From Muricoccus harenae (lineage in GTDB: Bacteria; Pseudomonadota; Alphaproteobacteria; Acetobacterales; Acetobacteraceae), in assembly GCF_009848505.1 (NCBI RefSeq), contig NZ_WWDL01000011.1, positions 62,001 to 126,000 on the forward strand: 64,000 nt of DNA. Reading direction: 5' to 3'. The position numbers and the translations under genes are program-made. The notes under the pieces were generated by a model that saw only the letters and a program-made list of their open reading frames with translations, had not been told where the DNA came from and searched no databases. Shown piece by piece: positions 25,027 through 39,664 of the stretch (within the stretch, counting starts at the first letter, position 1; each line of letters begins with the position of its first letter).

Positions 25027-26150
25027 GCGGGTTCCTGGATGATGGTCGTGGCACCGGCGCGTGCTGCGCGGTCATCCACCGCGATCATGGCGTCGCGGAT
25101 GGCGGCCGCCGTGAGCGGCGGCCCGGCGAGATGGGTGATATGCGGCGCGGTCAGGGTCGCCTCCGCAACGCGATTGAGCGTCGCGTCGTCCTCGGGCGAG
25201 AGACCGATCCCGGCCAGGCGCCGTGGCAGGCCGATGCGCGCATAGAAGGGCAGCAGCGCATCCAGCTGCGCCGCACCACCCGGCGTCAGCTGCAGCTGCA
25301 CGAGCAGCCCAAAGGCTACCTGCTCCCCATGCGGGCAATGCGCGGATGCGGCCACGCGGGTGAAGCCGCGCGTCAGCGAATGCGCCAGCGACAGCCCGCC
25401 ATTCTCGAAGCCGAGGCCACTCATCAGCACTACCGCCTCCACCGTGGCCTCGAAGGCATCGGTCAGGCGCCCGGCGGCAGCATCCTCCATCGCCTGCGGC
25501 GCGTGGCGGAACAGCGTTTCGAAGGCATAGCGGGCGATGACACCGCCAGTGCGGAGCGGCGGCGTGCCAAAGGGCGTCAGCCCATCCACCGCCGCGCAGC
25601 CTTCCGCCTCGAAGCGCTTGGTCAGCCCGTCTCCGATCCCGGCGCGGAGCAGGGCTGGGGGGGCGCGCAGCAGGATCTCCGTATCCACCAGCACGGCATC
25701 GGGATTGCGCGGCAGGCGCTCCACCCGATCCAGCGCACCATCCTCGCGATACATCACGAAGATCCGGCTTGTGGGCGAATCATTCGAGGCTGCGGTGGGC
25801 ACCGTCACCACGGGCAGGCCGCGGCGCAAAGCCACCGCCTTGGCCGCATCGATCGACCGCCCGCCGCCAAGCCCGATGACGCATCCTGCCGTGGGCGGCA
25901 GGGCATCGTCGAGGCGCGCGACCGCCGCATCCGACACCTCGCCACGCAGCGCGGCGGACTCCATGCAAACACCTGCGCCGCGCAACGCCGATTCCACCGC
26001 CGGCCCGTGCAGCGGAAGCATGTCCGCATCGGCCACCAGCGCCGCATCCGCCGTGATGGCGCCAACGATGCCGCCGATCTCGCGCAGCGCGCCCGGCCCT
26101 TGCAGGTAGAAGCGCGGCCCGCCGAAGGCCCTGATGCGTTGTGTGCTCAT
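25023..26150 (-). CDS. GldA-like iron/zinc-dependent alcohol dehydrogenase
   Basis: Glycerol dehydrogenase-type enzyme of 375 residues. The NAD-binding GLGGGRSIDAAK is at 93-104 and the metal ligands are Asp174 (GIGDGLTK), His257 (LAHSL) and His274 (CPHGEQ), in the same spacing as GldA. It starts at ATG 26150, overlapping the stop of the Gfo/Idh/MocA gene by four bases, and its own stop overlaps the start of the transketolase N-half. The likely role is oxidation of a polyol or hydroxyketone, or reduction of dihydroxyacetone-like ketones, feeding or draining the transketolase. Confidence 0.9.
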   Translation of the reverse strand: MSTQRIRAFGGPRFYLQGPGALREIGGIVGAITADAALVADADMLPLHGPAVESALRGAGVCMESAALRGEVSDAAVARLDDALPPTAGCVIGLGGGRSIDAAKAVALRRGLPVVTVPTAASNDSPTSRIFVMYREDGALDRVERLPRNPDAVLVDTEILLRAPPALLRAGIGDGLTKRFEAEGCAAVDGLTPFGTPPLRTGGVIARYAFETLFRHAPQAMEDAAAGRLTDAFEATVEAVVLMSGLGFENGGLSLAHSLTRGFTRVAASAHCPHGEQVAFGLLVQLQLTPGGAAQLDALLPFYARIGLPRRLAGIGLSPEDDATLNRVAEATLTAPHITHLAGPPLTAAAIRDAMIAVDDRAARAGATTIIQEPA

Positions 26151-27148
26151 GCCGGCACCACTTCCGCCGGCAGAGGGCGGCCGGCGAGCGCATAGGCTGC
26201 CTCGGTCAGTCGCATCACCGGCACCATGTCGTCGAGCCCGGTCAGTGGTGCCGTGCCGCGCCGCGCACGCTCCAGCACATCCCGCACGAAGACCGGATAC
26301 TGGCCGACATTGGCGGTGTGCATGCGCAGGCTGCGGCGGGTGCCGTCGCGCGCGATCACCTCCACCGTCTCGGTATCGGGAACCACCATGTAGTGGCGCG
26401 GCGTCCGCAGCGCGAAGTGCAGGTCGAAATTGCTTGTCGGCGCGGGATAGAGATAGCCAGTTTCCACCATTGCCAGCGCGCCGCCAGGACCGGCAAAGGC
26501 GATGGCGCCGTAATCCTCCACCGCATGGCCCCAGGCGGCGTTGGAAAGGCTGGCCGCCGCCGGCCGCGCCGCCTCGCCCCAGAGCGCGTGGCAGATATCC
26601 ACGAAGTGGACGCCGAGATTCAGCACGCAGCCGCCCCCGGCAAGCGACCGGTCGAGCATCCAATCGCAGCCCGCCTGCTGGTAGCGCGCCGCGAAGCCCG
26701 CGATGAAGCGGAAGGCCATGTGCTGCACGCCGCCATCCTCGGCCGCCATCTCGCCGATCAACCGGAAGAAGTCGCCATTGCGCAGGACCAGCGGCACGGC
26801 GGCGAAGGCGCCGCGCGCGGCCGCCAGGGCTGCGATGCGCTCCACCTCCCCCGTGTTCAGGCCGCAGGGCTTTTCGAGCGCGAAGGGAATGTCCTCGGCG
26901 ATCAGGAACTCCGCCTGCGCGGCCATGTCGGCATGGCGGCCGAGTGCGAATACGAAATCCGGACGCTCGCGTCGGCACAGGGCACGGAAGTCGTGGTCGA
27001 AGGCGCAGCCGTAGCGCTCGCCCAGTGTCCGCGCCTTGCCAGGATCGGGGTCGCTCATCCCGGCGAGGACGAGACCAGGCAGCTGCAAGGCCGGCTCGAG
27101 ATAGAGCGGAAGGTGCCAGTGCGACGCGCCGATGAACGCGATCCTCAT
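26147..27148 (-). CDS. Gfo/Idh/MocA-family NAD(P)-dependent oxidoreductase
   Basis: Sugar or inositol dehydrogenase-type protein, 333 residues. The N-terminal Rossmann motif is an altered IAFIGASHWH, followed by the hallmark LEKPCG with Lys93 and a C-terminal half containing LNLGVHFVDICHALWG, where the family's catalytic His/Asp pair usually sits. It is the first gene of the minus-strand unit. The predicted operator AAGTGTCGACA lies at 27215-27225, 67 bases upstream. The ATG at 27148 is preceded at 12 bases by GGGAGG. Substrate unknown. Confidence 0.88.
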   Translation of the reverse strand: MRIAFIGASHWHLPLYLEPALQLPGLVLAGMSDPDPGKARTLGERYGCAFDHDFRALCRRERPDFVFALGRHADMAAQAEFLIAEDIPFALEKPCGLNTGEVERIAALAAARGAFAAVPLVLRNGDFFRLIGEMAAEDGGVQHMAFRFIAGFAARYQQAGCDWMLDRSLAGGGCVLNLGVHFVDICHALWGEAARPAAASLSNAAWGHAVEDYGAIAFAGPGGALAMVETGYLYPAPTSNFDLHFALRTPRHYMVVPDTETVEVIARDGTRRSLRMHTANVGQYPVFVRDVLERARRGTAPLTGLDDMVPVMRLTEAAYALAGRPLPAEVVPA

Positions 27149-27214
27149 GCCTTTGCTTGCCTCCCTGGGGCGACGAAGCGCGGCGCCCCACCGCGTTATC
27201 CCATGAAGGTTACA

Positions 27215-27225
27215 AAGTGTCGACA
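27215..27225 (+). promoter_or_regulatory. Shared operator copy 1: AAGTGTCGACA
   Basis: The core TGTCGACA is a perfect 8-bp palindrome. It lies 67 bases upstream of the minus-strand dehydrogenase-transketolase unit. The same 11-mer recurs at 37971-37981 and, on the other strand, at 37807-37817, with a one-base variant at 27278-27288. The GntR regulator at 34542-35348 belongs to one of the four units carrying the element and is the likeliest binder. Confidence 0.6.
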
Positions 27226-27277
27226 TGAAAGGTTGCGAATGCCGCATCTCGGTGCTCATATTGCGGAAGTCGCCGCC

Positions 27278-27288
27278 AAGTGTGGACA
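27278..27288 (+). promoter_or_regulatory. Shared operator copy 2: AAGTGTGGACA
   Basis: Variant of the shared element with G for C in the centre. With the next two bases it reads AGTGTGGACACT, whose arms AGTGT/ACACT are perfectly inverted. It lies 68 bases upstream of the ATG of the plus-strand hydratase/CoA-transferase unit at 27356, mirroring the 67-base distance of copy 1 from the minus-strand start. Confidence 0.55.
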
Positions 27289-27355
27289 CTATAAAGGCGC
27301 CCGGGGACCCTGGTGAGGGGCCAGCACCGCGGGGCCGAAAGGAGGAAGCCGGCCA

Positions 27356-27877
27356 ATGGACCTCATCACAGATGCGGCGCGCGCCTTGATCGGCACACGC
27401 TCCGACTGGGTGGAGGCCTGCCATCCCGTGGAGCCGAGCGAGTTGCGTCGCTTCTTCCAGGCCACCATGGACCCCAGCCCGCGCTACCGCAGCACGGCGG
27501 TGGACGGACGCTATGGCGGCCCAGTCGCGCCGCCGGGATTTCCCGTGCACGCCTTCCGCCGCCCGCCTTCGGATACGAAGGATCCGCTGGAGGGCATGGG
27601 CGACCCCGAATTCGACGGCGAGTCCCGCGTCTTCCGCCAGGGACTGCCGCGCATGCCCATTCCGCTGCAGGGCGTGCTGAACGGCGGATACGAATACGAG
27701 TTCCTCAGCTACGCACGGCCGGGCGAGGCGATCTATTGTCGCAGCGTCTATCGCGATCTCCGCCAGCGGCAGGGCCGTTCCGGCCCGATGGTGCTGGTGG
27801 TGATCGATGATGAATACGCGGCGGGTGCGGAGAAGCGGCCTCTGCTGCGCTCCACCAGCACGACCATCATCCGGTGA
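27356..27877 (+). CDS. MaoC/FAS1-like hot-dog dehydratase subunit (first copy)
   Basis: A 173-residue hot-dog fold protein of the FAS1-like dehydratase N-terminal type, recognisable from the YGGPVAPPGFPVHAFRR segment, LNGGYEYEFLSYARPGE and the RSTSTTIIR end. Such subunits pair with a MaoC-type partner to hydrate or dehydrate enoyl-CoA thioesters. A AAAGGAGGAAG ribosome site precedes the ATG, the strongest in this operon, as expected of a first gene. The stop overlaps the GTG of the following CoA-transferase. A close paralogue is encoded at 31259-31798. The acyl-CoA substrate is not known. Confidence 0.85.
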   Translation: MDLITDAARALIGTRSDWVEACHPVEPSELRRFFQATMDPSPRYRSTAVDGRYGGPVAPPGFPVHAFRRPPSDTKDPLEGMGDPEFDGESRVFRQGLPRMPIPLQGVLNGGYEYEFLSYARPGEAIYCRSVYRDLRQRQGRSGPMVLVVIDDEYAAGAEKRPLLRSTSTTIIR

Positions 27878-30279
27878 GCGGCGCGGCCGGCGGCGGCAAT
27901 GGGCTACGTCCCCTGGCCGGGCTGCGCGCGCTGGAGCTCGGCAGCGGCGTCTCCCTCGCCTTCGCGGCGCGGCTGCTCGCGGATCTCGGCGCCGAGGTGC
28001 TGCGCCCGGCGCCCGCGGGCGAGGCACTCCGCCGTGCCGCTCCCCTCATCAAGGACCCTAACGGCACGCGGGACAGCGCGCTCTTCGTCTATCTGAATCA
28101 CGGCAAGCGTCATCTGGAGCTCGACGCCGACACGCCGGAAGGCGCCCTGCGCCTCGCGGCCCTGGCGCGCGAGGCCGATCTCGTCCTCTGGTCACCGGAT
28201 GAGGGCGGCACGGCCCTGGGCTCCTTGCTGCCCGCCCGCGACGACCCGACGCGCCGCCCCACGGTTGTGCTGACTGCCCATGGCCTCACGGGCCCTCGCG
28301 CCGGCGCGCCGGGCAATGCCTTCACCGCGCAGCATGGCGGCGGCCTGGCCTATCACCAGGCCTGCCCGGTGACCGATCCCGAGGCAGCCCCGCCGCTGGG
28401 CTGCGCGGACCGGGAGGCGGCGATGCTGGTCGGGCTGATCGCCGCCAATGCCGCGCTCTGCGCCGCGCTGGAGCCGCCGGGCGATGGCCCGGCCCCGTAT
28501 CTCGACCTCTCCGCCGAGGATGCCTCCGCCTGGATGCTGGTGGACGCCCTGGCGGAGTTGCATGACGGCGTGCTGCCGCCTGGCCGGCGCCGGGTGAAGG
28601 GGCGGGAGATCACCATCGCCGGTGGCCTGGTCTGGCTGCTGCCCTGCGCGGACGGCACCATCCTCGTCTCCCCGCGCGAGGACCATCAATGGGCCCGCTG
28701 GGTGGCGCTGATGGGTGATCCGGACTGGGCAAAGGATCCGGCGCTCTGCGCGAGCCGCGCCGTCCGCACCGCCCATGCGCCGGAGCTGGGCCGACGCATG
28801 GCCGAATGGTCCATCCACGAACCGGCTCGATCCGTGTTCGAACGCGCGCAGGCGGCGCGCGTGGCCTGCTTCCCCGTCAGCACGGCGACGGACCTCGTCG
28901 CCAACCGGCAGCTCGCCAGCCGGCGCTTCTTCCGGCCGCTGGCGCGCGGGGATGGCGATGCCGTGCCCCTGCCCGGCCTGCCCTTCGCCATGCGCGACAG
29001 CGCCGGCGCGGCGCTGCCGCGCGGCGAGCCTGTGGCGATGCCAGCGGTGGAGCCGACCGGCAATGGCTTCTCCCCACGCCGCCTTGCCGCGCCCGCCCTG
29101 CGCGGTGCCTGCAGACACCTGCCGCTGGCCGGGCTGCGCGTGGTGGATTTCAGCTGGGTCGTCGCCGGACCAATGGCGACGAAGATGCTCGGCGCGCTGG
29201 GCGCCGAAATCATCAAGATCGAATCCACGCGCCGCCCTGAATTCGCGCATCGCAGCGGCTGGTTCGCCGTGGTGAACAACAACAAGCGCAGCTGCACGGT
29301 GGATATCACGACCACCGAGGGTCAGGGGCTGATCCGCGATCTCGTCGCCACCAGCGATGTGGTGGTGGAGAATTTCTCCTCCCGCGTGCTGCGCGGCAAC
29401 AACCTCGGCTACGAAGACCTCGCCGCGGTGCGGCCAGAGCTGATTTATGTCTCGGCTTCCGGCCTGGGGCGGGAGGGACCGGAGCGGGACCTGCTCGCCT
29501 ATGGCTCGCTGCTGCAGGCCTATAGCGGCCGCGTGGGTCTCATCGGCCGCGCGAACCCGGCGCTGGAAGCCATGGGCATTATGCCGGCCTGGACCGATCC
29601 GGTGACATCGCTTTGGGAATCCGTCGCCATCCTCGCGGCGCTGCGCCACCGCGCGGAGACGGGACGCGGGGCCTATATCGACCTCTCGATGCTGGAATCG
29701 ACGGTGGCGCTGCTGCCGGATGCGCTGCTGCATGCCGGCCTCGGCCGCCCCGTCCCGCGCAACGGCAGCGCCGAGGATCTGGGGGGCGCACCCTCCGGCC
29801 TGTTCCGCTGTGCCGGAGATGACGATTGGCTGGCTCTTTCCGTTCCGGACGATGCCAGCTGGACCGGCCTCTGCCGTGCGATGGAACGCGGCGACTGGGC
29901 GGCGCTGCCCGCCCTCGCCCACGCCGAGGGCCGGATGGAGGCCCGCGACACGCTACACGCGGGCATCGCCGCCTGGTGCCGCACCCGCGGCGGCGAGGAG
30001 GCGGAAGCCGCGCTGCGTGGCCGTGGCGTGCCCGCCGCGCGGTCCCGCGGCATCCATGAGCTGGTGAAGGACCCGCATCTCGCCGCGCGCGGCCTCTTCC
30101 GTCAACTGCCGACAGGACAATGGAGCATCGCCTTGCCCTGGATGGGCGCCGATGGCTGGCGCGGCACGCTGGAGCCGCTGCCGGGGCTGGGTGCGGACAA
30201 TGACTACGTCTTCGGAGATTTGCTGGGTCTTGCCGCCGCACGGCGCGAGGCGCTGGTCGAAGCAGGGGCAATCCGGTGA
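27874..30279 (+). CDS. Double-length CaiB/BaiF-family CoA-transferase (tandem fusion)
   Basis: The 801-residue protein holds two complete CaiB-like halves, about 10-400 and 415-801, instead of the usual single unit of about 400 residues. Each half has the family's catalytic aspartate position: Asp179 in GCADREAAMLVG and Asp575 in AWTDPVTSLWES. The second half is closer to the family consensus (LRVVDFSWVVAGPMATKMLG, NKRSCTVDI, VVENFSS). Family III transferases move CoA between organic acids, often succinyl-CoA to a catabolic acid. The GTG start overlaps the preceding stop. A single-length member is encoded at 32316-33491, so two different activation steps are likely. Confidence 0.88.
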   Translation: MSGAAGGGNGLRPLAGLRALELGSGVSLAFAARLLADLGAEVLRPAPAGEALRRAAPLIKDPNGTRDSALFVYLNHGKRHLELDADTPEGALRLAALAREADLVLWSPDEGGTALGSLLPARDDPTRRPTVVLTAHGLTGPRAGAPGNAFTAQHGGGLAYHQACPVTDPEAAPPLGCADREAAMLVGLIAANAALCAALEPPGDGPAPYLDLSAEDASAWMLVDALAELHDGVLPPGRRRVKGREITIAGGLVWLLPCADGTILVSPREDHQWARWVALMGDPDWAKDPALCASRAVRTAHAPELGRRMAEWSIHEPARSVFERAQAARVACFPVSTATDLVANRQLASRRFFRPLARGDGDAVPLPGLPFAMRDSAGAALPRGEPVAMPAVEPTGNGFSPRRLAAPALRGACRHLPLAGLRVVDFSWVVAGPMATKMLGALGAEIIKIESTRRPEFAHRSGWFAVVNNNKRSCTVDITTTEGQGLIRDLVATSDVVVENFSSRVLRGNNLGYEDLAAVRPELIYVSASGLGREGPERDLLAYGSLLQAYSGRVGLIGRANPALEAMGIMPAWTDPVTSLWESVAILAALRHRAETGRGAYIDLSMLESTVALLPDALLHAGLGRPVPRNGSAEDLGGAPSGLFRCAGDDDWLALSVPDDASWTGLCRAMERGDWAALPALAHAEGRMEARDTLHAGIAAWCRTRGGEEAEAALRGRGVPAARSRGIHELVKDPHLAARGLFRQLPTGQWSIALPWMGADGWRGTLEPLPGLGADNDYVFGDLLGLAAARREALVEAGAIR

Positions 30280-30298
30280 GCTGGAGGGAAAACGGAAC

Positions 30299-30760
30299 AT
30301 GCTGAAGGTCGAGACGCGCGAGCCGGAGGAACGGTTCTTCGAGGACTTCTCGGAAGGGCAGGAGCTTCCCACCGTCACCAAGGGCCCGATGATGGTCGGC
30401 GACCAGGTGCGCTGGGCCGGTGCCTGCGACAACTACGAATCCGAGTTCCACCACGACGAGTACGTGGCCAAGGCGCAGGGCCTTCCGGGCATCATCCTCT
30501 CCGGCCCGCTGATGGCCTCCCTCCTGATGACCACCGTGATGCAATGGATGGGCCGCGGCGCCCGGCTGGTGCGCTTCTTCGACCAGAATCGCGGCTCCAC
30601 CATGCCGCGCGACCTTGCGCATCTGCAGGGCCGCATCCGCCGCACCTATGAGGAGGCCGGCAAGGCTTTCGTGGAGCTGGAATGCTGGATCACCAACCAG
30701 CGCGGCGAGATCACGACACCCGGCTCGGCGCTCGTCGAGCTGCCGCGCCGCGGCCGCTGA
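30299..30760 (+). CDS. MaoC-like hot-dog hydratase (first copy)
   Basis: A 153-residue MaoC-type protein (FFEDFSEGQELPTVTKGPMM, ESEFHHDEYVAKAQGLPG). These form enoyl-CoA hydratases, often as heterodimers with FAS1-like partners such as the one encoded at 27356. The ATG at 30299 has CTGGAGGGAA upstream. It follows the double CoA-transferase by 19 bases. Confidence 0.85.
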   Translation: MLKVETREPEERFFEDFSEGQELPTVTKGPMMVGDQVRWAGACDNYESEFHHDEYVAKAQGLPGIILSGPLMASLLMTTVMQWMGRGARLVRFFDQNRGSTMPRDLAHLQGRIRRTYEEAGKAFVELECWITNQRGEITTPGSALVELPRRGR

Positions 30761-30773
30761 GGAGGGAAACGCC

Positions 30774-31262
30774 ATGTCCGCCGTACAGACCGCCGATCCG
30801 CCCGCCGAGATCTCCGACGCCGAGGCCGAGCGCTACCTCCAGACCCTGATCGGCCCGATCGGCGAGGAGGTGACGACACTGGTGGAGCTGGGCGCCGTCC
30901 GCCGCATGGCGCTGGCCCTTGGGGACCTCGACCCGATCCATTTCGACGAGGCAGCCGCGAAGGCGCGCGGCTATCGCGGAATCGTCGCGCCCTGGCCGTT
31001 GCTCTGGCTCTATTTTTTCACCTGCACCGTCTACGAGCACGACTTCCCCTTCGGGAAGGCGACCGTCCACGGCCAGGACGACTACGAGTTCCACGAACCG
31101 GTCGTGGTGGGCGACCAACTCACCATCCGTACGGCTATGGTAGACGCAAAGCTGAAGCACGGCAAAACCGGGCGCCTGGGCCAGGTGGTTTCGGAGCGCC
31201 GCTTCACCAACCAGCGCGGCGAGCTCTGCGCCGTGCTCCGCACCACGCTGTTCCGCCGGTGA
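30774..31262 (+). CDS. MaoC-family hot-dog dehydratase subunit
   Basis: A 162-residue hot-dog protein with VRRMALALGDLDPIHFDEAAA, the segment that in MaoC-type hydratases holds the catalytic Asp and His, followed by GIVAPWPLLW and a C-terminal RFTNQRGELCAVLRTTLFRR. The ATG at 30774 follows GGAGGGAAAC. Its stop overlaps the GTG of the next FAS1-like gene, suggesting these two form a complex. Confidence 0.85.
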   Translation: MSAVQTADPPAEISDAEAERYLQTLIGPIGEEVTTLVELGAVRRMALALGDLDPIHFDEAAAKARGYRGIVAPWPLLWLYFFTCTVYEHDFPFGKATVHGQDDYEFHEPVVVGDQLTIRTAMVDAKLKHGKTGRLGQVVSERRFTNQRGELCAVLRTTLFRR

Positions 31263-31798
31263 GCGCCGCGACCGGAACCCCGCCGGACTACATCACGCCG
31301 GCGGTGCGCGCGATCATCGGCGCGGAGGCCCCGCCGCTGGAGGCGCATCACCCCGTGGAGGCGAGCGAGGCGCGGCGCTTCCATCAGGCGCTGATGGATG
31401 ACGCGCCGCGCTACTGGGACCCGGCCGCCGCCTCGCGCTATGGCGGCCCTGTGGCCCCAATCGGCTTCCCCGTGCACGCCATGCGCCGCGCGGAGGACGA
31501 GGCCGATCCGCTCGATGCCATGCAGCAGGGCGAGTATGATGGCGTGGATCGCCGCCTGCGCCCCGGCCTGCCGGAAGTGCAGGTGCCGCTGAAGCGCCTG
31601 ATGAACGGCGGCTACGAATACGAGCTGTTCCGCTATGCCCGCCCGGGCGAGAGGATCCGCGTCCGCAGCCGCTACGCGGATATTTACCAGCGCAATGGCC
31701 GCACCGGCCCGATCGTCTTCGTGGTGATCGAGGATGATTACGAAACCGAGCATGGCGAGCGGCTGCTGCGCTCCACCAACACGATCATCCTGCGATGA
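31259..31798 (+). CDS. MaoC/FAS1-like hot-dog dehydratase subunit (second copy)
   Basis: A 179-residue paralogue of the protein encoded at 27356, sharing HPVEASEARRFHQALMD-like spacing, YGGPVAPIGFPVHAMRR, MNGGYEYELFRYARPGE and a RSTNTIILR end. The GTG start overlaps the previous stop by three bases. Duplication of this subunit, each beside its own MaoC-type partner, suggests two successive hydration steps or two substrates. Confidence 0.85.
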   Translation: MSAATGTPPDYITPAVRAIIGAEAPPLEAHHPVEASEARRFHQALMDDAPRYWDPAAASRYGGPVAPIGFPVHAMRRAEDEADPLDAMQQGEYDGVDRRLRPGLPEVQVPLKRLMNGGYEYELFRYARPGERIRVRSRYADIYQRNGRTGPIVFVVIEDDYETEHGERLLRSTNTIILR

Positions 31799-31809
31799 GG
31801 CCGGAACCG

Positions 31810-32319
31810 ATGAGCACGAGCACGATGGCCAGAGTGGGCGAAGGCGCCGTTTTCGACGATGTCGAGGTCGGGCAGGAAATCCCCACTCTGGTGAAGGGGC
31901 CGATGACCACGGCGCATATCATGCGCTGGTCGGCGGCCATGGAGAACTGGCACCGCATCCATTACGATTGGAAATACGCCACCGAGCATGACGGCCTGCC
32001 GGATGTGATGGTGAATGGCAGCTGGAAGCAGCATGTCATGATCCAGTTGCTGACGGATTGGGCCGGCGACACGGGCTGGCCCTGGAAGGTTGGCTTCCAG
32101 TTCCGCGGCATGAACGTGCCGGGTGACACGCTCACCGCCTGGGGCCGCGTCACTGCCAAGGAGGAGCGCGGACCCTACGGCGTGGTGGATCTCGAGATCG
32201 GGCTGCGCAGCCAGAAGGGGGAGGAGAGCACGCCCGGTACCGCGCGCGTCGTGCTGCCCCGCCGGGGCGGCCCACCCGTGCCCTATCCCTTCGATCCCGC
32301 CGTGCTGGGGACGGCATGA
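31810..32319 (+). CDS. MaoC-like hot-dog hydratase (second copy)
   Basis: A 169-residue MaoC-type protein resembling the one encoded at 30299 (FDDVEVGQEIPTLVKGPMTT; WHRIHYDWKYATEHDGLPD). An in-frame ATG at 31795 overlaps the preceding stop by ATGA. The ATG at 31810 is favoured by a GAGGCCGGA stretch ahead of it; both are plausible. The stop overlaps the start of the following CoA-transferase by four bases. Confidence 0.83.
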   Translation: MSTSTMARVGEGAVFDDVEVGQEIPTLVKGPMTTAHIMRWSAAMENWHRIHYDWKYATEHDGLPDVMVNGSWKQHVMIQLLTDWAGDTGWPWKVGFQFRGMNVPGDTLTAWGRVTAKEERGPYGVVDLEIGLRSQKGEESTPGTARVVLPRRGGPPVPYPFDPAVLGTA

Positions 32320-33491
32320 ACGGCCACTCCCCCCTCTCACGCTTCACGGTGCTGGACCTCAGCCGCGTCCGCGCCGGACCGAATGCCGTCAAGCAGCTTT
32401 CCGACTGGGGCGCCGCCGTCATCAAGGTCGAGGGCCCCGGCGAGGATGACATGACCGGCGCTCGGGACGGTTCGGACTTCCAGAACCTCCACCGGAACAA
32501 GCGCTCCATCGTGCTCGACCTGAAGGCGCCGGAGGGGGTAGCGGTGGTGAAGCGTCTCGCCGCCCACGCCGATGTGGTGGTGGAGAATTTCCGGCCCGAT
32601 GTGAAGCACCGCCTGGGTATCGGCTATGACGAGCTGCGCGCGGTGAATCCCCGCCTTGTCTACGCCTCCATCTCCGGCTTCGGACAGGATGGCCCCTATG
32701 CCGGCCGACCGGGCTTCGATCAGATCGCCCAGGCCATGGGCGGGCTGATGTCGGTGAACGGCGTACCCGGCCAGGGGCCGCTGCGCGCCGGCATTCCGGT
32801 GGCCGATCTCTGCTCCGGCCTCTTTGCCGCCATCGGCATCCTCATCGCGCTGCTGGACCGCGAGACGACCGGTGAGGGGCAATGGGTGCAGACCTCCCTG
32901 CTCCAGGCCCAGGTGGCGATGCTGGACTTCCAGGCGGTGAGCTGGCTGGTGGATGGCCGCATCTCCGGACAAACCGGCAATGACCATCCCTATATGACGC
33001 CGATGGGCGTCTACCCCGCGTCCGATGGCGGCATCGTCATCGGCGCCTCGGGCCAGGGGCAGTACCGCAAGTTTTGCGAGGCACTCAACGCCCCCACGCT
33101 CCTCGCCGATCCGCGCTTCGCCTCGGCGCCGGCACGGGTGGAGAACCGCACGGCCTTCAACGAGGCTGTCTCGGACATCACCCTCACGGCGCCCGCCGCG
33201 CATTGGGTCGCGGTGCTGAACGCCGCCGGCATCGCCTGCGGCCCGATCAACCGCATGGACCAGGTTTTCGCCGATCCACAGGTGCGGGCCTCGGGCGTCG
33301 TGCAACCCGTGGAGCATCCGCGACTGGGCCGGCTGGAACTGCTCGGCGCGCCGTTGACGCTGTCCGCCAGCGCCGCGCGCATCGAAACCCCGGCACCGGA
33401 AAAGGGCGAGCACACCGACATACTGCTGCGGGACGCCGGCTATTCGGATGCGGAGATCGCAGGATTGCGAGCGGAGGGCGTGGTCGCCTGA
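32316..33491 (+). CDS. CaiB/BaiF-family CoA-transferase
   Basis: Single-length family III CoA-transferase, 391 residues, with LSRVRAGPNAVKQLSDWGA near the N-terminus, NKRSIVLDL, ENFRPDV and the catalytic aspartate, Asp164, in IPVADLCSGLFAA, which aligns with Asp169 of formyl-CoA transferase. It should activate an organic acid as its CoA thioester for the hydratases encoded beside it. The start overlaps the preceding stop (ATGA). Donor and acceptor acids are unknown. Confidence 0.9.
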   Translation: MNGHSPLSRFTVLDLSRVRAGPNAVKQLSDWGAAVIKVEGPGEDDMTGARDGSDFQNLHRNKRSIVLDLKAPEGVAVVKRLAAHADVVVENFRPDVKHRLGIGYDELRAVNPRLVYASISGFGQDGPYAGRPGFDQIAQAMGGLMSVNGVPGQGPLRAGIPVADLCSGLFAAIGILIALLDRETTGEGQWVQTSLLQAQVAMLDFQAVSWLVDGRISGQTGNDHPYMTPMGVYPASDGGIVIGASGQGQYRKFCEALNAPTLLADPRFASAPARVENRTAFNEAVSDITLTAPAAHWVAVLNAAGIACGPINRMDQVFADPQVRASGVVQPVEHPRLGRLELLGAPLTLSASAARIETPAPEKGEHTDILLRDAGYSDAEIAGLRAEGVVA

Positions 33492-33523
33492 ACCGCTGGA
33501 CAGGAAACGGGAGGAACAACGAC

Positions 33524-34501
33524 ATGAACAGCATCGGACGCCGCGGAGCCCTTGGCTTCGCCCTCGCCACGCCTTTCGTCAGCCGGGCGGCGCGGGCGCA
33601 GGCCGACTGGCCCTCGCGCCCCCTCCGCTTCGTCGTGCCCTTCACGGCCGGTGGCGGTGGGGACACCTCGGCACGCGCCCTTGCGGCTCGTACCAGTGAA
33701 ATCCTCGGCCAGAACATCGTCATCGAGAACCGCACCGGCGGCAATGCGGTGGTGGCCGCCAACTCCGTGCTGCAATCCCCGCGCGACGGCTATTCCTATC
33801 TGGTGGATGCCGCCAACCAGATAACCAACCCCTTCCTCGTCCGCGACCTGCCCTTTGACTACAGGACCGCCTTCGTTCCGGTGACCATGACGGCGCGGTT
33901 CCCGCAGGTGGTCGCGGTGCGGCACGATTTTCCGGCGCGCAGCATCGGGGAGTTCATCGATTACGTCCGCGCGCGCCCCGGCACCGTCTCCTGCGGAACG
34001 CCGCCTGCGGCCGGTGCCGGCCATCTGGCGCTGGAGCTGCTGCAGCAGCGGGCCGGCATCCGCCTCCTGCACGCCCCCTATCGCGGCGGCGCCGATGCGG
34101 CGCGCGACATCACCGGCGGGCAGATCGATTCCGTCATCCTCACCAGCTCCACCATCCGCGGGCCCGTCCAGGCCGGGAAGGCACGGGTTCTGGCGATGAC
34201 GAGCGCCGAGCGCAGCCCCGCCTATCCGGACACGCCGACACTGGACGAGAGCGGCTATCCCGGCTTCGAGATGGATGACTGGAACGGCCTCTTCGCCGCC
34301 GAGGGCGCGCCCACCGGCATGCTGCCGAAGCTATTGGCCGCCATGAGCCAGGCCGCGCGGGACCCGAATGTGCAGGCCCGCATGGCGCCGCTGGGCACGG
34401 TGCTGGTCATCAATGACACACGGGATTTCAACCGCTGGCTCATCCGCCAGCGCCAGGTGGTGGAGGAGGTCATCAAGACCGCCAACATAACCCTCGGCTG
34501 A
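33524..34501 (+). CDS. TctC/Bug-type substrate-binding protein
   Basis: Periplasmic receptor of 325 residues with a twin-arginine signal (MNSIGRRGALGFALATPF...AQA), WPSRPLRFVVPFTAGGGG, ENRTGGNAV and LHAPYRGGAD. The ATG at 33524 has GGGAGGAAC upstream, and the gene follows the CoA-transferase by 32 bases on the same strand, so it probably ends the hydratase/CoA-transferase operon and binds the acid that this operon degrades. Confidence 0.92.
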   Translation: MNSIGRRGALGFALATPFVSRAARAQADWPSRPLRFVVPFTAGGGGDTSARALAARTSEILGQNIVIENRTGGNAVVAANSVLQSPRDGYSYLVDAANQITNPFLVRDLPFDYRTAFVPVTMTARFPQVVAVRHDFPARSIGEFIDYVRARPGTVSCGTPPAAGAGHLALELLQQRAGIRLLHAPYRGGADAARDITGGQIDSVILTSSTIRGPVQAGKARVLAMTSAERSPAYPDTPTLDESGYPGFEMDDWNGLFAAEGAPTGMLPKLLAAMSQAARDPNVQARMAPLGTVLVINDTRDFNRWLIRQRQVVEEVIKTANITLG

Positions 34502-34511
34502 CGCTTTCCCG

Positions 34512-34540
34512 GGCCCGCTTCCGCGGATGGGGAGCGGGCC
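34512..34540. terminator. Hairpin between convergent TctC and GntR genes
   Basis: GGCCCGCT (34512-34519) and AGCGGGCC (34533-34540) are perfectly inverted around a 13-base loop, just after the TctC stop and directly abutting the GntR stop on the other strand. Confidence 0.5.
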
Positions 34541-34541
34541 G

Positions 34542-35348
34542 TTAATCCGGCCGTCCGTTCCGGCGCCGGCCGGCGGGCGGCTCCGCTGCGGGGCCACCGT
34601 GGTCATCGTCCAGCATCCGCTCCAGCTCCCGCAGTGCGCCTAGCACATTCGCGGTCACCAGCGCAGCGGCCAGCTGCGTGTCCCGGTCCTCCAACGCACG
34701 CACCAGCATCGTGTGGTCGGCGATGGAACGCCGCACCCGGCCCGGATTGGCCAGTGTCATGCGGCGGAAGCGGAGGCTGCGCAGCACGAGGGAATCCAGC
34801 GCCCGCTGCAGCGTGCGATTGCGTGAAATCTCGCTGAAGCGCTCGTGGAAGCGGACATTGCCCCAGTAGTAGCCGTCCCGGTCTCCCGTTTCCGCCGCCA
34901 CCTGCATGCGGCCGGCGATGTCGCGAAGCTCCTCGATCTCGGCTGCCGTCGCATGCTCGCCCGCCTCCTTCGCAGCCAGCGCCAGCATCGCCGCGCGCAC
35001 GCGGTAGATTTCGCGGATCTCGGTGCGGTCATACTCCGCCACGCGCGGCCGGCGCCGGGGCGGGATTTCCACCAGCCCTTCCTTCTCCAGGATGGCCAAT
35101 GCCTCGCGCGTCGGCGTGCGGCTGGTCCGGAAGCGCCGCGCAAGTTCCACGGAGTTGAGGTCGTCGCCCGGCGCATGGACGCCGTCCAGGATCTCCGCGC
35201 CAAGGGTGCAGGCGATCTCCGTCACCAGGGAGGGACGCTCGTCGCTCTGGGGCAGCACCCGGCGGATGATAGCCTGGAAGCGCTCGAAATTTCCGGGGGG
35301 CGAGGCCGCCCCGTCGCCCCGCGGCGCGGCCTCAGGTTCAGCTTCCAT
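34542..35348 (-). CDS. GntR-family (FCD/FadR-type) transcriptional regulator
   Basis: A 268-residue regulator with a winged helix at about 40-110 (ELARRFRTSRTPTREALAIL, then EKEGLVEIPPRRRPRV) and a C-terminal all-helical FCD ligand domain (EIREIYRVRAAMLALAA onward) with Asp/His positions typical of acid-binding members. It is the last gene of the minus-strand unit starting at 37709, whose promoter carries the AAGTGTCGACA element. That makes it the natural candidate for controlling the four units that share the element and for autoregulation. The ATG at 35348 lacks a clear ribosome site and the frame is open to 35435, so the N-terminus is uncertain. Confidence 0.85.
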   Translation of the reverse strand: MEAEPEAAPRGDGAASPPGNFERFQAIIRRVLPQSDERPSLVTEIACTLGAEILDGVHAPGDDLNSVELARRFRTSRTPTREALAILEKEGLVEIPPRRRPRVAEYDRTEIREIYRVRAAMLALAAKEAGEHATAAEIEELRDIAGRMQVAAETGDRDGYYWGNVRFHERFSEISRNRTLQRALDSLVLRSLRFRRMTLANPGRVRRSIADHTMLVRALEDRDTQLAAALVTANVLGALRELERMLDDDHGGPAAEPPAGRRRNGRPD

Positions 35349-35557
35349 TGCCGCCCAGCGCCGCGGCGTCCGGCCTCGCTGCCCCGCGGATCGGAGGCAT
35401 GGCCGGGAAATGGTTTGCCGGCTCCACCATGCCACCGGCGGCAGGCCGATCGGCCGCCTGCCCGAACCGGGTCGTTCTCATGCCAGCTCCTCGCCGTCTC
35501 AGGCGCCTCCTGTAGCGAAAAACGGGAAGGCGAGCCAAGCGGCGCCAGAAGGGCGTG

Positions 35558-36145
35558 TCAGAAGGGCGTGTAGGTGTTGACGAGGTCCAGCGCGTCGGCC
35601 GCTGCGCCCAGAGAAGACAGTTCGAACGGCTCCGGCAGCGGCACCCTCGCCTCCACGACGGCCAGTACATCGGCACCCTCCGCGCCGGAAGAGTCGACGA
35701 GGATACGGAGTTGCCGCACCTCCGGCCGTCCCTCGAAGATACCGCGCAGGCTGGTGGTCAGCGCCTCCACCGCGCTTCCGTCCAGCCCGCGGAAGCGCAG
35801 TACAGAGACCCGCGCGGCGCGGCCGGTGACCCGGTCTCCCGGATAGGTCTGCTCGCCCGCGTGGCGCTGCACCCGCGCCCGCGCCGTCACGCGCTTGGTC
35901 CAGGGACTGGAATTATCGTGCGCCACGCGGAGATAGGCGGGTGAATCCATCACCTCTGGCGCCTCAAGGTCGTAGATCGCGAGGAAGCGCGGCGCGGGGC
36001 CGGTGCTCACATAGCGCAGCCCGGTCAGGAAGCCCGGAACGGAAAGCCGCTCCGGCACATGCTCAAGGTCGTACCAAGCGTTGAACTCCTCCTCGAAGGC
36101 CGGGGGCGGGTTCATCAGGACCAGCAGGAAACCCTTCTTCGCCAT
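35558..36145 (-). CDS. EthD/ferredoxin-like fold protein of unknown function
   Basis: A 195-residue soluble protein. The N-terminal half (LLVLMNPPPAFEEEFNAWYD, EHVPERLSVPGF) has the pattern of dimeric alpha/beta-barrel proteins of the EthD/Dabb type, and a second weaker repeat may follow from about residue 110. I cannot assign a reaction. It sits between an alpha/beta hydrolase gene and the GntR gene on the minus strand and is probably co-transcribed with them. Confidence 0.7.
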   Translation of the reverse strand: MAKKGFLLVLMNPPPAFEEEFNAWYDLEHVPERLSVPGFLTGLRYVSTGPAPRFLAIYDLEAPEVMDSPAYLRVAHDNSSPWTKRVTARARVQRHAGEQTYPGDRVTGRAARVSVLRFRGLDGSAVEALTTSLRGIFEGRPEVRQLRILVDSSGAEGADVLAVVEARVPLPEPFELSSLGAAADALDLVNTYTPF

Positions 36146-36157
36146 TATTTCTTCCTC

Positions 36158-36934
36158 TCACGCCTGCAGCACCGGCCCCAGGAAGGCCAGCACCCGCTCC
36201 GCGAAGCGCGTCGGCTGCTGGTAGGGCAGGAAATGCGCGCCATCCTCGTCGATCTCGAGCCGGGCGCCGGGCGGTAGCAGCGTGCGCACCGCCTCGGCCT
36301 GGGCGACCGGCAGCAACAGGTCGTGGCGCCCGGCCACCAACAGCACCGGGCAGCGCACATGTGGCAGGTCGGCGGTTGCGTCAGCTTCAGCGAAGCCCAG
36401 CACGGCCTCGGCATAGGCTTCCGCATCCTGGTCCGCGAAGGCATCCAGATAGCGTTGGTAGCGTGCGTCGCGCGGCTGCGCCTCGAAAGCGCGCTTGACG
36501 GCGGCGGGGAGGATCGCGGCCATCCCGCCGGTGCGCACGGCCTCGGCGCGCGCCTTCAGCATCGCCCGCGCCGCTTCGGCACTGCGCGGCGTCGGGTTGG
36601 ACAGCACCAGCGCCGGCATACGGTCCGGATGGCGCGCCGCATAGGCCGCCGCGATCATCGTGCCGACGGCGCAGCCCACGGGGATGACGGCTTCGATTCC
36701 CAATGCCGCCCGCAACGCCTCCAGATCCGCCACATGCCGGTCAAGTCCCGGCGCGACGCCCCGCGGCGAGGCTCCGGCCGAGCGCAGATCCATGGCAAGG
36801 CAGGTGAAATGCGGGCGCCATGCGGGCAGGCAGTCATCCCAGAAATCCAGCGCGGCGCCGAGTGGATGGATCAGCAGCAGTGCCGGCGCCCTGGCCGCAG
36901 CGCCCAGCAGCCGGTGATGCAGCAATTCAGCCAC
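36158..36934 (-). CDS. Alpha/beta hydrolase-fold protein lacking the nucleophilic serine
   Basis: A 258-residue protein resembling 3-oxoadipate enol-lactonase (LLLIHPLGAALDFWDD, DLRSAGASPRG, LVAGRHDLLLPV). The nucleophile elbow, normally G-x-S-x-G, reads GCAVG: the serine position is Ala89. The acid (in GRHDLL) and histidine (in DGAHFLP) are present. It may be a non-hydrolytic member, such as a binding or decarboxylase-like enzyme. The GTG at 36934 follows GGAGG by six bases and overlaps the stop of the intact hydrolase gene by eight bases. Confidence 0.82.
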   Translation of the reverse strand: MAELLHHRLLGAAARAPALLLIHPLGAALDFWDDCLPAWRPHFTCLAMDLRSAGASPRGVAPGLDRHVADLEALRAALGIEAVIPVGCAVGTMIAAAYAARHPDRMPALVLSNPTPRSAEAARAMLKARAEAVRTGGMAAILPAAVKRAFEAQPRDARYQRYLDAFADQDAEAYAEAVLGFAEADATADLPHVRCPVLLVAGRHDLLLPVAQAEAVRTLLPPGARLEIDEDGAHFLPYQQPTRFAERVLAFLGPVLQA

Positions 36935-37709
36935 CTGCACCCTCCGCGCCGAGCAGGAAGCCGGCGACCGCCGCCGCATAGGCCGCGGCGCATTCCACCT
37001 GCATCATGTGCGGGGCGCCGGGCAGCACGAGGAAACGCGCACCGGGGATGGGTTGGGCCACCGTTGCTTCGGAAACGGCAGCGGGTGTCGCGACATCCCG
37101 CTCCCCCGCGATGACCAGGGTCGGGACAGCCAAGCGTGCGAGATGCGGCGTCGCATCCAATCCCGCAATCGCATGCCACCCGGCCGACCAGCCCGCCACA
37201 TCCTGCTCCAGCAGATGCCGGCGGACCTGCTCAACGGCGGGATTGTCGCGGAAGTCCTCGTTGAACCAACGATCCAGAGTCGGGGCCACCACCTCTGCCA
37301 TGCCGCCGCGCTCCGCCATCAGGCCGCGCTCGCGCAGCATGGGCCGCGCCTCCGCCGCGAAGGTGCCGCCGCAGCCGCAGGGGATAAGGGCGGAGACGAG
37401 ATCCGGATGCCGCAACGCCAGCACCTGCGCCACCATCCCGCCGAAGGACAGCCCCACCACGGCCGCCGGCCCACCGCCGGCATGGCGGATGGCGGCGGCG
37501 ACATCATCTGCATAATCCTCGATCGGCCGCGGCCGCGTGGCGGCGGGGGACCGGCCATGCCCTGCCAAGTCCAGCGCCAGCACGCGGCGCTGCCCGGACA
37601 AGGCGGATGGGAGCGGGCCCCAGAAGCGATGATCGAGACCAACGGGATGCAGCAGGACGACGAGCGGACCATTTCCCTCCGCCGCGCCATGCAGTGAGAT
37701 CGCGCTCAC
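36927..37709 (-). CDS. Alpha/beta hydrolase, 3-oxoadipate enol-lactonase type
   Basis: A 260-residue hydrolase with an intact triad: Ser88 in VGLSFGGM, an aspartate in GERDVAT and a histidine in GAPHMMQ. The lid and LDLAGHGRSP segments match PcaD-like enol-lactonases and related esterases. It is the first gene of the minus-strand unit and its promoter region carries AAGTGTCGACA at 37807-37817, 98 bases upstream. It probably cleaves a lactone or ester intermediate of the shared pathway. Confidence 0.87.
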   Translation of the reverse strand: MSAISLHGAAEGNGPLVVLLHPVGLDHRFWGPLPSALSGQRRVLALDLAGHGRSPAATRPRPIEDYADDVAAAIRHAGGGPAAVVGLSFGGMVAQVLALRHPDLVSALIPCGCGGTFAAEARPMLRERGLMAERGGMAEVVAPTLDRWFNEDFRDNPAVEQVRRHLLEQDVAGWSAGWHAIAGLDATPHLARLAVPTLVIAGERDVATPAAVSEATVAQPIPGARFLVLPGAPHMMQVECAAAYAAAVAGFLLGAEGAGG

Positions 37710-37806
37710 TGCCGCAGTTTCCGGAAGCGCCTGGCGTTACACCTGCCAGGGACCGCGATGGCAAGCATGGCCCTTGCGTCGATCTCCACCCGCATGACGC
37801 CCCCTT

Positions 37807-37817
37807 TGTCGACACTT
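37807..37817 (-). promoter_or_regulatory. Shared operator copy 3: AAGTGTCGACA (minus strand)
   Basis: The plus strand reads TGTCGACACTT, the exact reverse complement of copies 1 and 4. It lies 98 bases upstream of the minus-strand hydrolase-GntR unit. The 37710-38121 intergenic region (412 bases) holds no gene; copies 3 and 4 and a modestly AT-rich stretch around 37980-38000 are its only notable features. Confidence 0.6.
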
Positions 37818-37970
37818 CCGAGAATAATTACGGACCTCGCCGGTTTCCGGACTTAGGAATGGTCATGCCCCCGGTGTCAAGCTTGACCTCATTCTCAGGC
37901 GATACTCGACTGCAACCGGGGATGTGATTTTGATCGCCGCAGTGACGAATCTGCTCGCCCCATGGCACAG

Positions 37971-37981
37971 AAGTGTCGACA
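37971..37981 (+). promoter_or_regulatory. Shared operator copy 4: AAGTGTCGACA (plus strand)
   Basis: Identical to copy 1 at 27215. It lies upstream of the amidohydrolase unit on the plus strand and is followed by AT-rich GTATAGCAAAAATCCCATAAG, a plausible promoter region. Copies 3 and 4 are inverted with respect to each other, one facing each divergent unit. Confidence 0.6.
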
Positions 37982-38121
37982 GTATAGCAAAAATCCCATA
38001 AGCTCTTCGCCAAAGCGACGTCCAGATCCGGGAGGCCCGTTCCCTGCTTTCCAGCACACGCCCGGCCACGGCCGTTCAACACCCGACGATCCGTCCCGAA
38101 TGGCTCGCACGTCACCAGGAA

Positions 38122-39093
38122 GTGGCGCTTGAACCTGATCTGCCGATCATCGACGCGCATCACCACCTCTGGGATCGTCCCCGCACTCCCTACCTCCTCG
38201 AGGACTTCCTGGCCGATGCGGCCGGTGGCCATGACATCCGCGCCAGCGTCTTCATCGAATGCGAGACGTCCTACCGCAGCGGGGGCGACGCGCTGCTCCG
38301 CCCGCTGGGAGAAACCGAATTCGTGGTCGAGGCCGCCGCCTGTGCCGCGGCCCGCCCGGCCGGGCCGCGTGTCGCCCATGGTATCGTCGGCTTCGCTGAA
38401 TTGCGTGCCGGCGCTGCCATCCGCCCGGTGCTGGAAGCGCAGATCGCGGCAGGCGCCGGGCGCTTCCGCGGCGTCCGCCATATCGCCGCCTGGCATGCGG
38501 ACCCGATGGCGCGCGGCTCCGTCGCCACGCCGCCGCCGATGCTGCTGCTGGATCCCGCCTTTCGCGAAGGCTTTGCCCAGCTCGCCCCGCTTGGCCTCAG
38601 CTTCGACGCCTGGATGTATCACACCCAGCTCGCCGAGCTGCGCGACCTGGCCGATGCCTTTCCCGAGACACGGATCGTGCTGAACCATGTCGGCGGCCCC
38701 ATCGGCATCGGCCCCTATGCCACGCGACGCCGGCACGTCTTCGCCGCATGGTCGGATGCCATCCGCGGCCTGTCCCATTGCCCGAACCTGCACATCAAGC
38801 TTGGCGGCTTCGGCATGCGGCTCTTCGGCTTTGGCTTCCACGAGGGCGCGGACCCGCCCGAATCCGCGCGCCTCGCCGAGGCGTGGCGCCCCTGGATCGA
38901 GACCTGCGTGGAAGCCTTCGGCCCCGCACGCTGCATGTTCGAGAGCAACTTCCCGGTGGACAAGGCGAGCTGCGGCTACACCGAGTTGTGGAACGCCTTC
39001 AAGCGGATAACCGCCAACTGGCCGCCGCATGAACGCGCCGCGCTGTTCCATGACACTGCCGCCCGCTTCTATCGGCTTGGCAGCGACACCTAG
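38122..39093 (+). CDS. Amidohydrolase-family (PF04909-type) hydrolase or decarboxylase
   Basis: A TIM-barrel metal-dependent hydrolase of the type that opens lactones (such as 2-pyrone-4,6-dicarboxylate) or decarboxylates aromatic acids. The metal motif D-x-H-H-H appears as IIDAHHHLWD with His13 and His15; further ligands are the His in LNHVGGP and the Asp near the C-terminus in SNFPVDK. The GTG at 38122 is the only start codon in this frame, giving 323 residues. Upstream codons from about 38080 still read as coding (IRPEWLARHQE), a usual family N-terminus, but contain no ATG, GTG or TTG. The start is therefore doubtful. Confidence 0.85.
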   Translation: MALEPDLPIIDAHHHLWDRPRTPYLLEDFLADAAGGHDIRASVFIECETSYRSGGDALLRPLGETEFVVEAAACAAARPAGPRVAHGIVGFAELRAGAAIRPVLEAQIAAGAGRFRGVRHIAAWHADPMARGSVATPPPMLLLDPAFREGFAQLAPLGLSFDAWMYHTQLAELRDLADAFPETRIVLNHVGGPIGIGPYATRRRHVFAAWSDAIRGLSHCPNLHIKLGGFGMRLFGFGFHEGADPPESARLAEAWRPWIETCVEAFGPARCMFESNFPVDKASCGYTELWNAFKRITANWPPHERAALFHDTAARFYRLGSDT

Positions 39094-39115
39094 CCCAGGC
39101 GAAAAGGAGACTCCG

Positions 39116-39664
39116 TTGGCGAGGCTTCCCTATCTGCAGCGCGGCGATCTGCCGCCGGAGCACCAGGACCTGCTGAAGCGGGACATCGCGATCAACCAGG
39201 TGCTCGCGCATAGCCCCGGCGCGGCGCGTGCCTTCAGCGACCTGGGCATGTTCATCCGCCACCGCAGCCGCCTCGATCCACGCCTGCGGCAGCTGGCGAT
39301 CATGCAGGTCGGGTGGTCGGCGCGCAGCCCCTATGAATGGTCGCACCACGTGCAGATCGGCCGCGACTTCGGCGTCTCCGATGCCGATATCGCAGCCCTG
39401 GCAGAGGAGACCGAAGGGCGCGGGAGCGGGCTTGAGCCGCTCGCCCGGCTTGTGCTGCGCGGCGCGCGGGAGATGTGGGTCGGTCCCGGCATGTCCGCCG
39501 ACACATTCGAGGCATTGCGTCCTCATCTGGACAATGAGTGCCTGACCGACCTGATTGTGACGATCGCCTATTACTGCGGCGTGGTCCGCATCCTCGCGAC
39601 GCTGGAGGTGGATGTGGAGCCCGAGTGGAAGCCATTCCTGCACGAATTCCCGCTGCCCGGATGA
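39116..39664 (+). CDS. Carboxymuconolactone decarboxylase-family protein
   Basis: A 182-residue all-helical protein of the AhpD/CMD type. The core QLAIMQVGWSARSPYEWSHH contains the family's Glu and paired His; the redox CxxC of peroxidase-type members is absent, favouring a decarboxylase or isomerase role. The TTG at 39116 has AAGGAGA seven bases before it and follows the amidohydrolase by 22 bases. The stop overlaps the ATG of the SDR gene. With a lactonase-like hydrolase nearby this suggests chemistry similar to the protocatechuate pathway. Confidence 0.85.
   Translation: MARLPYLQRGDLPPEHQDLLKRDIAINQVLAHSPGAARAFSDLGMFIRHRSRLDPRLRQLAIMQVGWSARSPYEWSHHVQIGRDFGVSDADIAALAEETEGRGSGLEPLARLVLRGAREMWVGPGMSADTFEALRPHLDNECLTDLIVTIAYYCGVVRILATLEVDVEPEWKPFLHEFPLPG

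Follow-up and report, generated by a model that had tools for sequence, protein, structure and literature searches.

The four elements and the gene units around them

We analyzed a 64,000-nucleotide stretch of the Muricoccus harenae genome (positions 62,001 to 126,000 of contig NZ_WWDL01000011.1; the window), in which four copies of a short element, AAGTGT(C/G)GACA, stand in two divergent intergenic regions (27149-27355 and 37710-38043), one copy ahead of each of four gene units (A to D; together, the block). Exact matches to AAGTGTSGACA were found at 27215-27225 (operator A), 27278-27288 (operator B) and 37971-37981 (operator D) on the forward strand and at 37807-37817 (operator C) on the reverse strand, and permitting one mismatch still yielded just these four sites. 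The palindromic core of the element is TGTCGACA, eight bases that read T-GTC-GAC-A, and the AAG flank is one-sided and non-essential. The core occupies 27218-27225 in operator A, 37807-37814 in operator C and 37974-37981 in operator D; operator B carries a one-base G variant, TGTGGACA, at 27281-27288. Operator A is 66 bases from the A1 start codon, operator B lies 67 bases ahead of B1, operator D is 62 bases from the probable CTG start of D1, and operator C is 11 bases from the start (37795) of a possible leader open reading frame (ORF) of C1. An earlier note on this DNA had described the four copies with a palindromic core. The copies were confirmed letter for letter, and the core was refined to a palindrome whose AAG flank is dispensable. 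The sites of the first region lie where the note had placed them, but its distances of 67 and 68 are coordinate differences, the bases between being 66 and 67.

Four copies were reached in none of 100 dinucleotide shuffles of the window. The assembly of the same genome (5,303,199 bases, 126 contigs, 98.7% complete) contained four matches to AAGTGTSGACA, which are the four window sites, and the reversed pattern, used as a control, had no match in it. The bare core TGTCGACA occurred 46 times in this genome (reversed control, 7). By a crude frame-based call, 42 of these copies were in open frames and four were intergenic (37807, 37974 and two outside the block); the call is wrong for 27218, which it took as coding owing to the open A1 frame upstream, and other sites may have been misjudged likewise.

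Gene families were assigned by Pfam and NCBIfam profile matches. Unit A runs leftward from 27148 on the reverse strand. It encodes a GFO/IDH/MocA-type dehydrogenase assigned by Pfam (A1, 26147..27148), a glycerol-dehydrogenase-like iron-type alcohol dehydrogenase (Fe-ADH; A2, 25023..26150), the N-terminal half (A3, 24187..25026) and C-terminal half (A4, 23182..24183) of a split transketolase, and a TctC substrate-binding protein whose start was chosen among candidates (A5, 22157..23146). The best PDB sequence match of A3 was 6yak, a split-chain transketolase. Unit B runs rightward from 27356 on the forward strand. It begins with a FAS1-type hot-dog dehydratase (B1, 27356..27877) and a class III coenzyme A (CoA)-transferase of 801 amino acids with two matched stretches (B2, 27874..30279). 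These are followed by four hot-dog proteins: a HadB/MaoC-like protein found by a weak match (B3, 30299..30760), a FAS1/HadA-like protein (B4, 30774..31262), a FAS1-type protein that had no match among solved structures (B5, 31259..31798) and a protein with a weak MaoC/FAS1 match (B6, 31795..32319). The unit ends with a second class III CoA-transferase, whose best solved sequence match was a succinate-hydroxymethylglutarate CoA-transferase (B7, 32316..33491), and a TctC substrate-binding protein, its start again chosen among candidates (B8, 33524..34501).

Unit C runs leftward from 37709 on the reverse strand. It encodes two alpha/beta hydrolases resembling the enol-lactonase PcaD, both under the PcaD cut-off (C1, 36927..37709; C2, 36158..36979), a predicted tandem dimeric alpha-beta-barrel protein without a Pfam match (C3, 35558..36145) and, as its final gene, a GntR regulator of 268 amino acids with an FCD domain (C4, 34542..35348). 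The tandem barrel of C3 was predicted with good confidence (predicted local distance difference test score 88), and a fold search returned broad alpha-beta-barrel matches only, at 15% identity or less among the 50 matches listed. Unit D runs rightward on the forward strand. It encodes an Amidohydro_2 family hydrolase (D1, 38044..39093, from the probable CTG start; a rule admitting ATG, GTG and TTG gives 38122), a carboxymuconolactone-decarboxylase-family (CMD) protein whose true start is probably further in (D2, 39029..39664), a short-chain dehydrogenase (SDR; D3, 39661..40434) and an AroE-like dehydrogenase (D4, 40431..41261). The enzyme list of the earlier note was thus borne out by the profiles, for B3 and B6 by weak matches, as was its GntR/FCD regulator encoded within one of the four units. 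A second AroE-like gene (21249-22058, forward strand) faces unit A tail to tail and has no 11-mer match nearby.

Conservation of the element and its link to C4

C4 matched the Pfam profiles GntR at 45.4 bits (cut-off 27) and FCD at 91.5 bits (cut-off 24.3), and its layout, an N-terminal GntR winged helix-turn-helix and a C-terminal FCD domain, is that of the FadR/FCD subfamily. Its best NCBIfam match, TIGR03338 (phnR_burk), scored 116.8 bits against a cut-off of 271.5, and C4 was far under the cut-off of all seven NCBIfam models matched, so that no named GntR regulator was reached. At an E value of 1e-50 or better, C4 orthologues were found in 8 of 397 family genomes, the own genome included, the other seven being 49-76% identical. 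Among 289 genomes drawn from the class, the own genome was the only one with an orthologue. A contig search found C4 at 66-76% identity in Plastoroseomonas hellenica, Humitalea rosea, Caldovatus sediminis, Falsiroseomonas stagni (L044, 71%) and a Hyphomicrobiales metagenome-assembled genome (MAG) outside the family (L045, 66%); Falsiroseomonas and Humitalea belong to the Roseomonadaceae in the NCBI taxonomy. The helix-turn-helix segment DLNSV(E/D)L(A/S)RR(F/Y).TSRTP(T/V)REA was almost invariant across 10 C4 orthologues. In the FCD domain, the aligned orthologues share with C4 an Asn in GNVRFHER, at a position that we take to be that of the metal-binding Asp of the D-x3-H motif. Because this Asn replaces the Asp, the ligand pocket of C4 may lack the usual metal.

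We then counted 8-mers, without bias toward the element, in 11 upstream regions of relatives, picked by orthology to A1, B1, C1 or D1 and excluding the window. The core TGTCGACA was present in 10 of the 11 regions, AGTGTCGA in nine and AAGTGTCG in six. In 500 Markov shuffles of these regions, the top 8-mer reached six regions at most and TGTCGACA one at most. The eleventh region, that between C and D in G212, has TGCCGACA and TGTCGGCA in place of TGTCGACA. A wider set of 13 regions had 12 positives; it includes G013_X and G255, which had been chosen after their sites were seen, and the count of 11 was therefore used. The copies were also concentrated: the fetched sequence totalled 184,424 bases with 20 TGTCGACA copies, and 15 of these fell in the 10 positive regions, which make up 2,269 bases. 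Every mapped A1/B1 or C1/D1 region linked to a C4 orthologue of the family, the A1/B1 region of G163 among them, contained at least one TGTCGACA, and mostly two. The G variant of operator B was conserved as well, AAGTGTGGACA occupying the equivalent position in F. stagni and G414. G255 keeps a two-site region though its regulator shares only 49-52% with C4.

The motif could also be used to find genes. Searching eight relatives' genomes with RAGTGTSGACA gave 14 matches, 10 of them in or beside block divergons: eight fell in regions mapped earlier and two exposed further A1/B1 divergons (G414 C319 and G212 C134). The other four had no assignment to block divergons. We also examined the 20 best-scoring D1-homologue loci, 150 of the 397 genomes having a D1 match. 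TGTCGACA was found in the flanks of all six loci beside a C4 orthologue and of none of the 14 others, which are mostly 58-65% identical and possibly paralogues; one of these 14 is in a genome with C4 elsewhere and one (G212) has the variant cores.

Among 23 collected sites, 12 had AAG next to the core on one or both sides, and 16 had AG. These sites were gathered via the cores TGTCGACA and TGTGGACA and are uninformative on core constancy. Variant cores were seen in relatives, namely TGTGCACA in G163 and TGCCGACA or TGTCGGCA in G212 and G013. With AAG in 12 of the 23, a fixed 11-mer with an obligatory AAG was rejected. Judged by its letters, the element forms a palindromic operator, AAG being a preferred flank. 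TGTCGACA fits the FadR-subfamily operator consensus GTM-N0-1-KAC, and a spacing of two nucleotides is on record for GntR, UxuR, PrpR and others, both as given in the parts of PMC4494728 used here.

Proposed binding of C4 and the probable mode of control

From sequence comparison, the four sites are very probably operators of C4, which would make the block a single FCD regulon, local and autoregulated, with four transcripts that are probably repressed. The proposal of the earlier note that the four divergent units form one regulon gained support on three counts: all four genomic 11-mers fall in the block, the core is present at 10 of 11 orthologous promoter regions, and at D1-homologue loci it tracks the linked regulator. 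A C4 dimer would bind the palindrome (A/G)AGTGTCGACA, with one TGTC half for each subunit. As every one of the four outgoing transcripts has an operator ahead of it, C4 would govern the block from 22.2 to 41.3 kb, and its position at the end of unit C would place its own gene under the same control. Repression would likely be lifted when a pathway intermediate binds the FCD domain, the inducer probably being a carboxylate imported via the TctC receptors. If so, four operons of uncertain enzymes can be tested together as a single unit whose regulator and operator are named, and in vitro screening with the regulator could reveal the inducer and, through it, the substrate.

The preference for repression is drawn from operator position. 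In relatives, operators end 16 bases before the start codon of B1 in G203, 16 before D1 in G013 and 18 before D1 in L044, and operators end 11 (in the window), 17, 18 and 18 bases before the start of leader ORFs; the relatives' remaining operators lie 31-197 bases from start codons. Operators that end 11-18 bases before a start codon would be close for an activator. That C4 instead binds the sites as an activator or dual regulator of the four units is a minority possibility, which we consider unlikely without being negligible. The sites 62-67 bases before the A1, B1 and D1 start codons permit an upstream activator position, and in three genera the A1/B1 cores are 63 bases apart, or six helical turns, a distance that could help cooperative action. 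Against this, several orthologous sites almost touch the ribosome-binding site, and many FadR-type regulators are repressors.

We compared the spacing of the paired sites across divergons. Between A1 and B1 the cores are 63 bases apart in the window, L044 and G414, 62 in G163 and 106 in G203; the A1/B1 divergon of G212 yielded no second site. A Rayleigh test gave p = 0.036 on four A1/B1 spacings, which are not independent, and 0.068 when the C/D pairs and G255 were added; helical phasing of the paired operators is therefore suggestive only. In the parts of PMC4494728 used here, constant spacing is associated with cooperative pairs and growing spacing with separate sites. The A/B spacing was uncorrelated with intergenic length (r about 0, n = 5), and the C/D spacing was weakly correlated with it (r 0.74, n = 5, G255 excluded). 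By eye, TTGC follows operator A in six aligned A1/B1 divergons, with a fitting -10 box clear only in Caldovatus, too little for a promoter to be called.

Several observations weigh against repression by C4 at these sites. Some operators are distant (197 bases from D1 in G239, 133 from the leader in G414 and 84 from D1 in G203), so position alone is no proof of repression, and a sigma-70-like promoter was looked for near the sites and none was found. In G212 (78% complete), the C/D region has the variant cores and no regulator was found. G255 has no match to RAGTGTSGACA and shows the bare core only. In the Hyphomicrobiales MAG, the orthologue is located at a contig end and lacks a site in the intergenic DNA upstream, and a lone TGTCGACA lies inside a TctC gene. 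On a Rhodococcus koreensis plasmid (regulator 44% identical), the upstream DNA has just a one-mismatch core, AGTCGACA. AAGTGTSGACA occurs in 122 of the 397 family genomes, mostly without C4, so that a single copy means little and clustering before block genes is what counts. Lastly, the own genome encodes 30 FCD domains, three of them within the window, and in G414 (L137, C288:3514) a copy of AAGTGTGGACA, with core TGTGGACA, coincides with or immediately precedes the start of a GntR-like gene 29% identical to C4; it is one of the four RAGTGTSGACA matches without an assignment. This copy suggests that related or paralogous GntR regulators may use similar operators. The GntR-like gene adjoins a TctC gene.

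The number of FCD domains and the G414 copy, together with GT-N-AC cores being common to GntR/FCD regulators, could also mean that the sites are operators of one regulon bound by another FCD protein or an unlinked factor. We consider this improbable. When the fetched stretches were searched with C4 and a second FCD protein as queries (E 1e-5), the C4 orthologue was the only GntR/FCD-like protein found in G018, G203, G163, L044, G414 and G255, with further such proteins in G013 and G239, and the core accompanied linked C4 at six of six loci and was absent from the other 14. That the four elements are a chance or non-regulatory repeat is hardly credible and was rejected: the core alone is not rare, with its 46 genomic copies mostly in open frames by the crude call, but the window shuffles, the genome-wide uniqueness of the 11-mer and the 8-mer count in relatives of other genera all argue against it.

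Enzyme modules, known systems and translation starts

The enzyme modules of relatives were found to differ around a conserved C/D core, with the operator and regulator constant. In G013, genes for a thiamine diphosphate (ThDP) decarboxylase-type enzyme, a CoA-transferase and TctC proteins lie behind an additional operator (L036:8972-9273), so that the regulon of this relative may have taken in further modules. Unit B of F. stagni includes an HMGL-like gene, and in Caldovatus an aconitase-type pair follows A1. The transketolase half A3 was found, at E 1e-60, in G013 only of eight relatives searched, and the plasmids gave no match at that threshold; F. stagni was outside this search, its fetched stretch ending inside A2.

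Together with a Diaphorobacter cluster described below, the relatives' modules suggest that the substrate is a carboxylic acid, branched or hydroxylated, evidence that stops short of identifying it. Tentatively, and with the odds somewhat against it, the regulon may govern a route, not yet described, that breaks down a hydroxy-carboxylic acid, branched or cyclic. In it the conserved C/D core would carry out a lactone opening and a decarboxylation that feed exchangeable modules: the split transketolase (window and G013), the ThDP decarboxylase-type enzyme (G013), the aconitase-type pair (Caldovatus), and a 3-hydroxy-3-methylglutaryl (HMG)-CoA-lyase-like enzyme with the CoA-transferase/hydratase set (Falsiroseomonas). 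No paper on such an enzyme set was found by text search of an open-licence library, a weak basis for calling the pathway undescribed; for regulator terms combined with the family, the one match there concerned iron regulation in Gluconacetobacter. If regulator and operator are indeed constant, the operator could be used to collect pathway parts across genomes. It has already pointed to unit genes on other contigs in two more genomes, which helps to define these parts.

We compared the block with known systems. FCD GntR regulons such as those of UxuR, PrpR, MdcY, HypR and HpxS, listed with a two-nucleotide GT/AC spacing in the parts of PMC4494728 used here, share with it the GntR helix-turn-helix and FCD domain, a palindromic GT-N2-AC operator, two-site divergons and a regulator gene within the regulon. 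The block differs from them in gene content and apparently also in its core TGTCGACA, which is often flanked by (A/G)AG. Most likely, the type of regulator and operator is already known, that of an FCD regulon, and the genes under its control are uncharacterised. A literature query with the operator letters returned no bacterial-regulator paper by title among the matches listed. The GntR regulator of phosphonate utilisation (TIGR03338) is the best NCBIfam match of C4, but C4 is far under its cut-off and the block matches include no phosphonate genes. A two-chain transketolase is also found in the side-chain-cleaving desmolase of Clostridium scindens; unlike in that setting, no steroid-type genes were recognised in the block. 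The Diaphorobacter plasmid cluster (NZ_CP049906.1) encodes a hot-dog pair 37 and 53% identical to B5 and B6, a CoA-transferase of about 846 amino acids 30% identical to B2, and TctC proteins. It differs in having a TetR regulator, a ThDP enzyme, an HMG-CoA lyase and an acyl-CoA dehydrogenase, with no transketolase among the 18 annotated genes listed and a lone intragenic TGTCGACA.

Two translation starts in the C/D region stood out. Homology of D1 extends 25-26 codons upstream of the rule-based start, up to a CTG with a Shine-Dalgarno-like stretch, and this codon is CTG in seven of eight C/D-region loci and TTG in the eighth (L044). In the window, GGGAGG lies upstream of the CTG at 38044, and the D1 frame has no ATG, GTG or TTG ahead of the rule-based start at 38122. 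D1 may therefore start at the conserved CTG, which would be unusual if true. On the other side, five of the eight loci have an in-frame GTG at -17, eight or nine codons after the CTG, and some have an ATG or GTG further upstream. Ahead of C1, the possible leader ORF of 29 codons (37706..37795, reverse strand) has a stop overlapping the C1 start. Leader ORFs with a Shine-Dalgarno-like stretch and such an overlap were seen at five of six loci, G203 being the exception; they are 9-29 codons long and unrelated in sequence between loci. Because of this overlap, C1 may be translationally coupled to its leader.

Elsewhere in the window, two more FCD regulators are encoded at about 48.5-50.4 kb, and copies of TGTGGACA lie at 51043 and 53245. 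These are possibly parts of a second regulon with a similar core.

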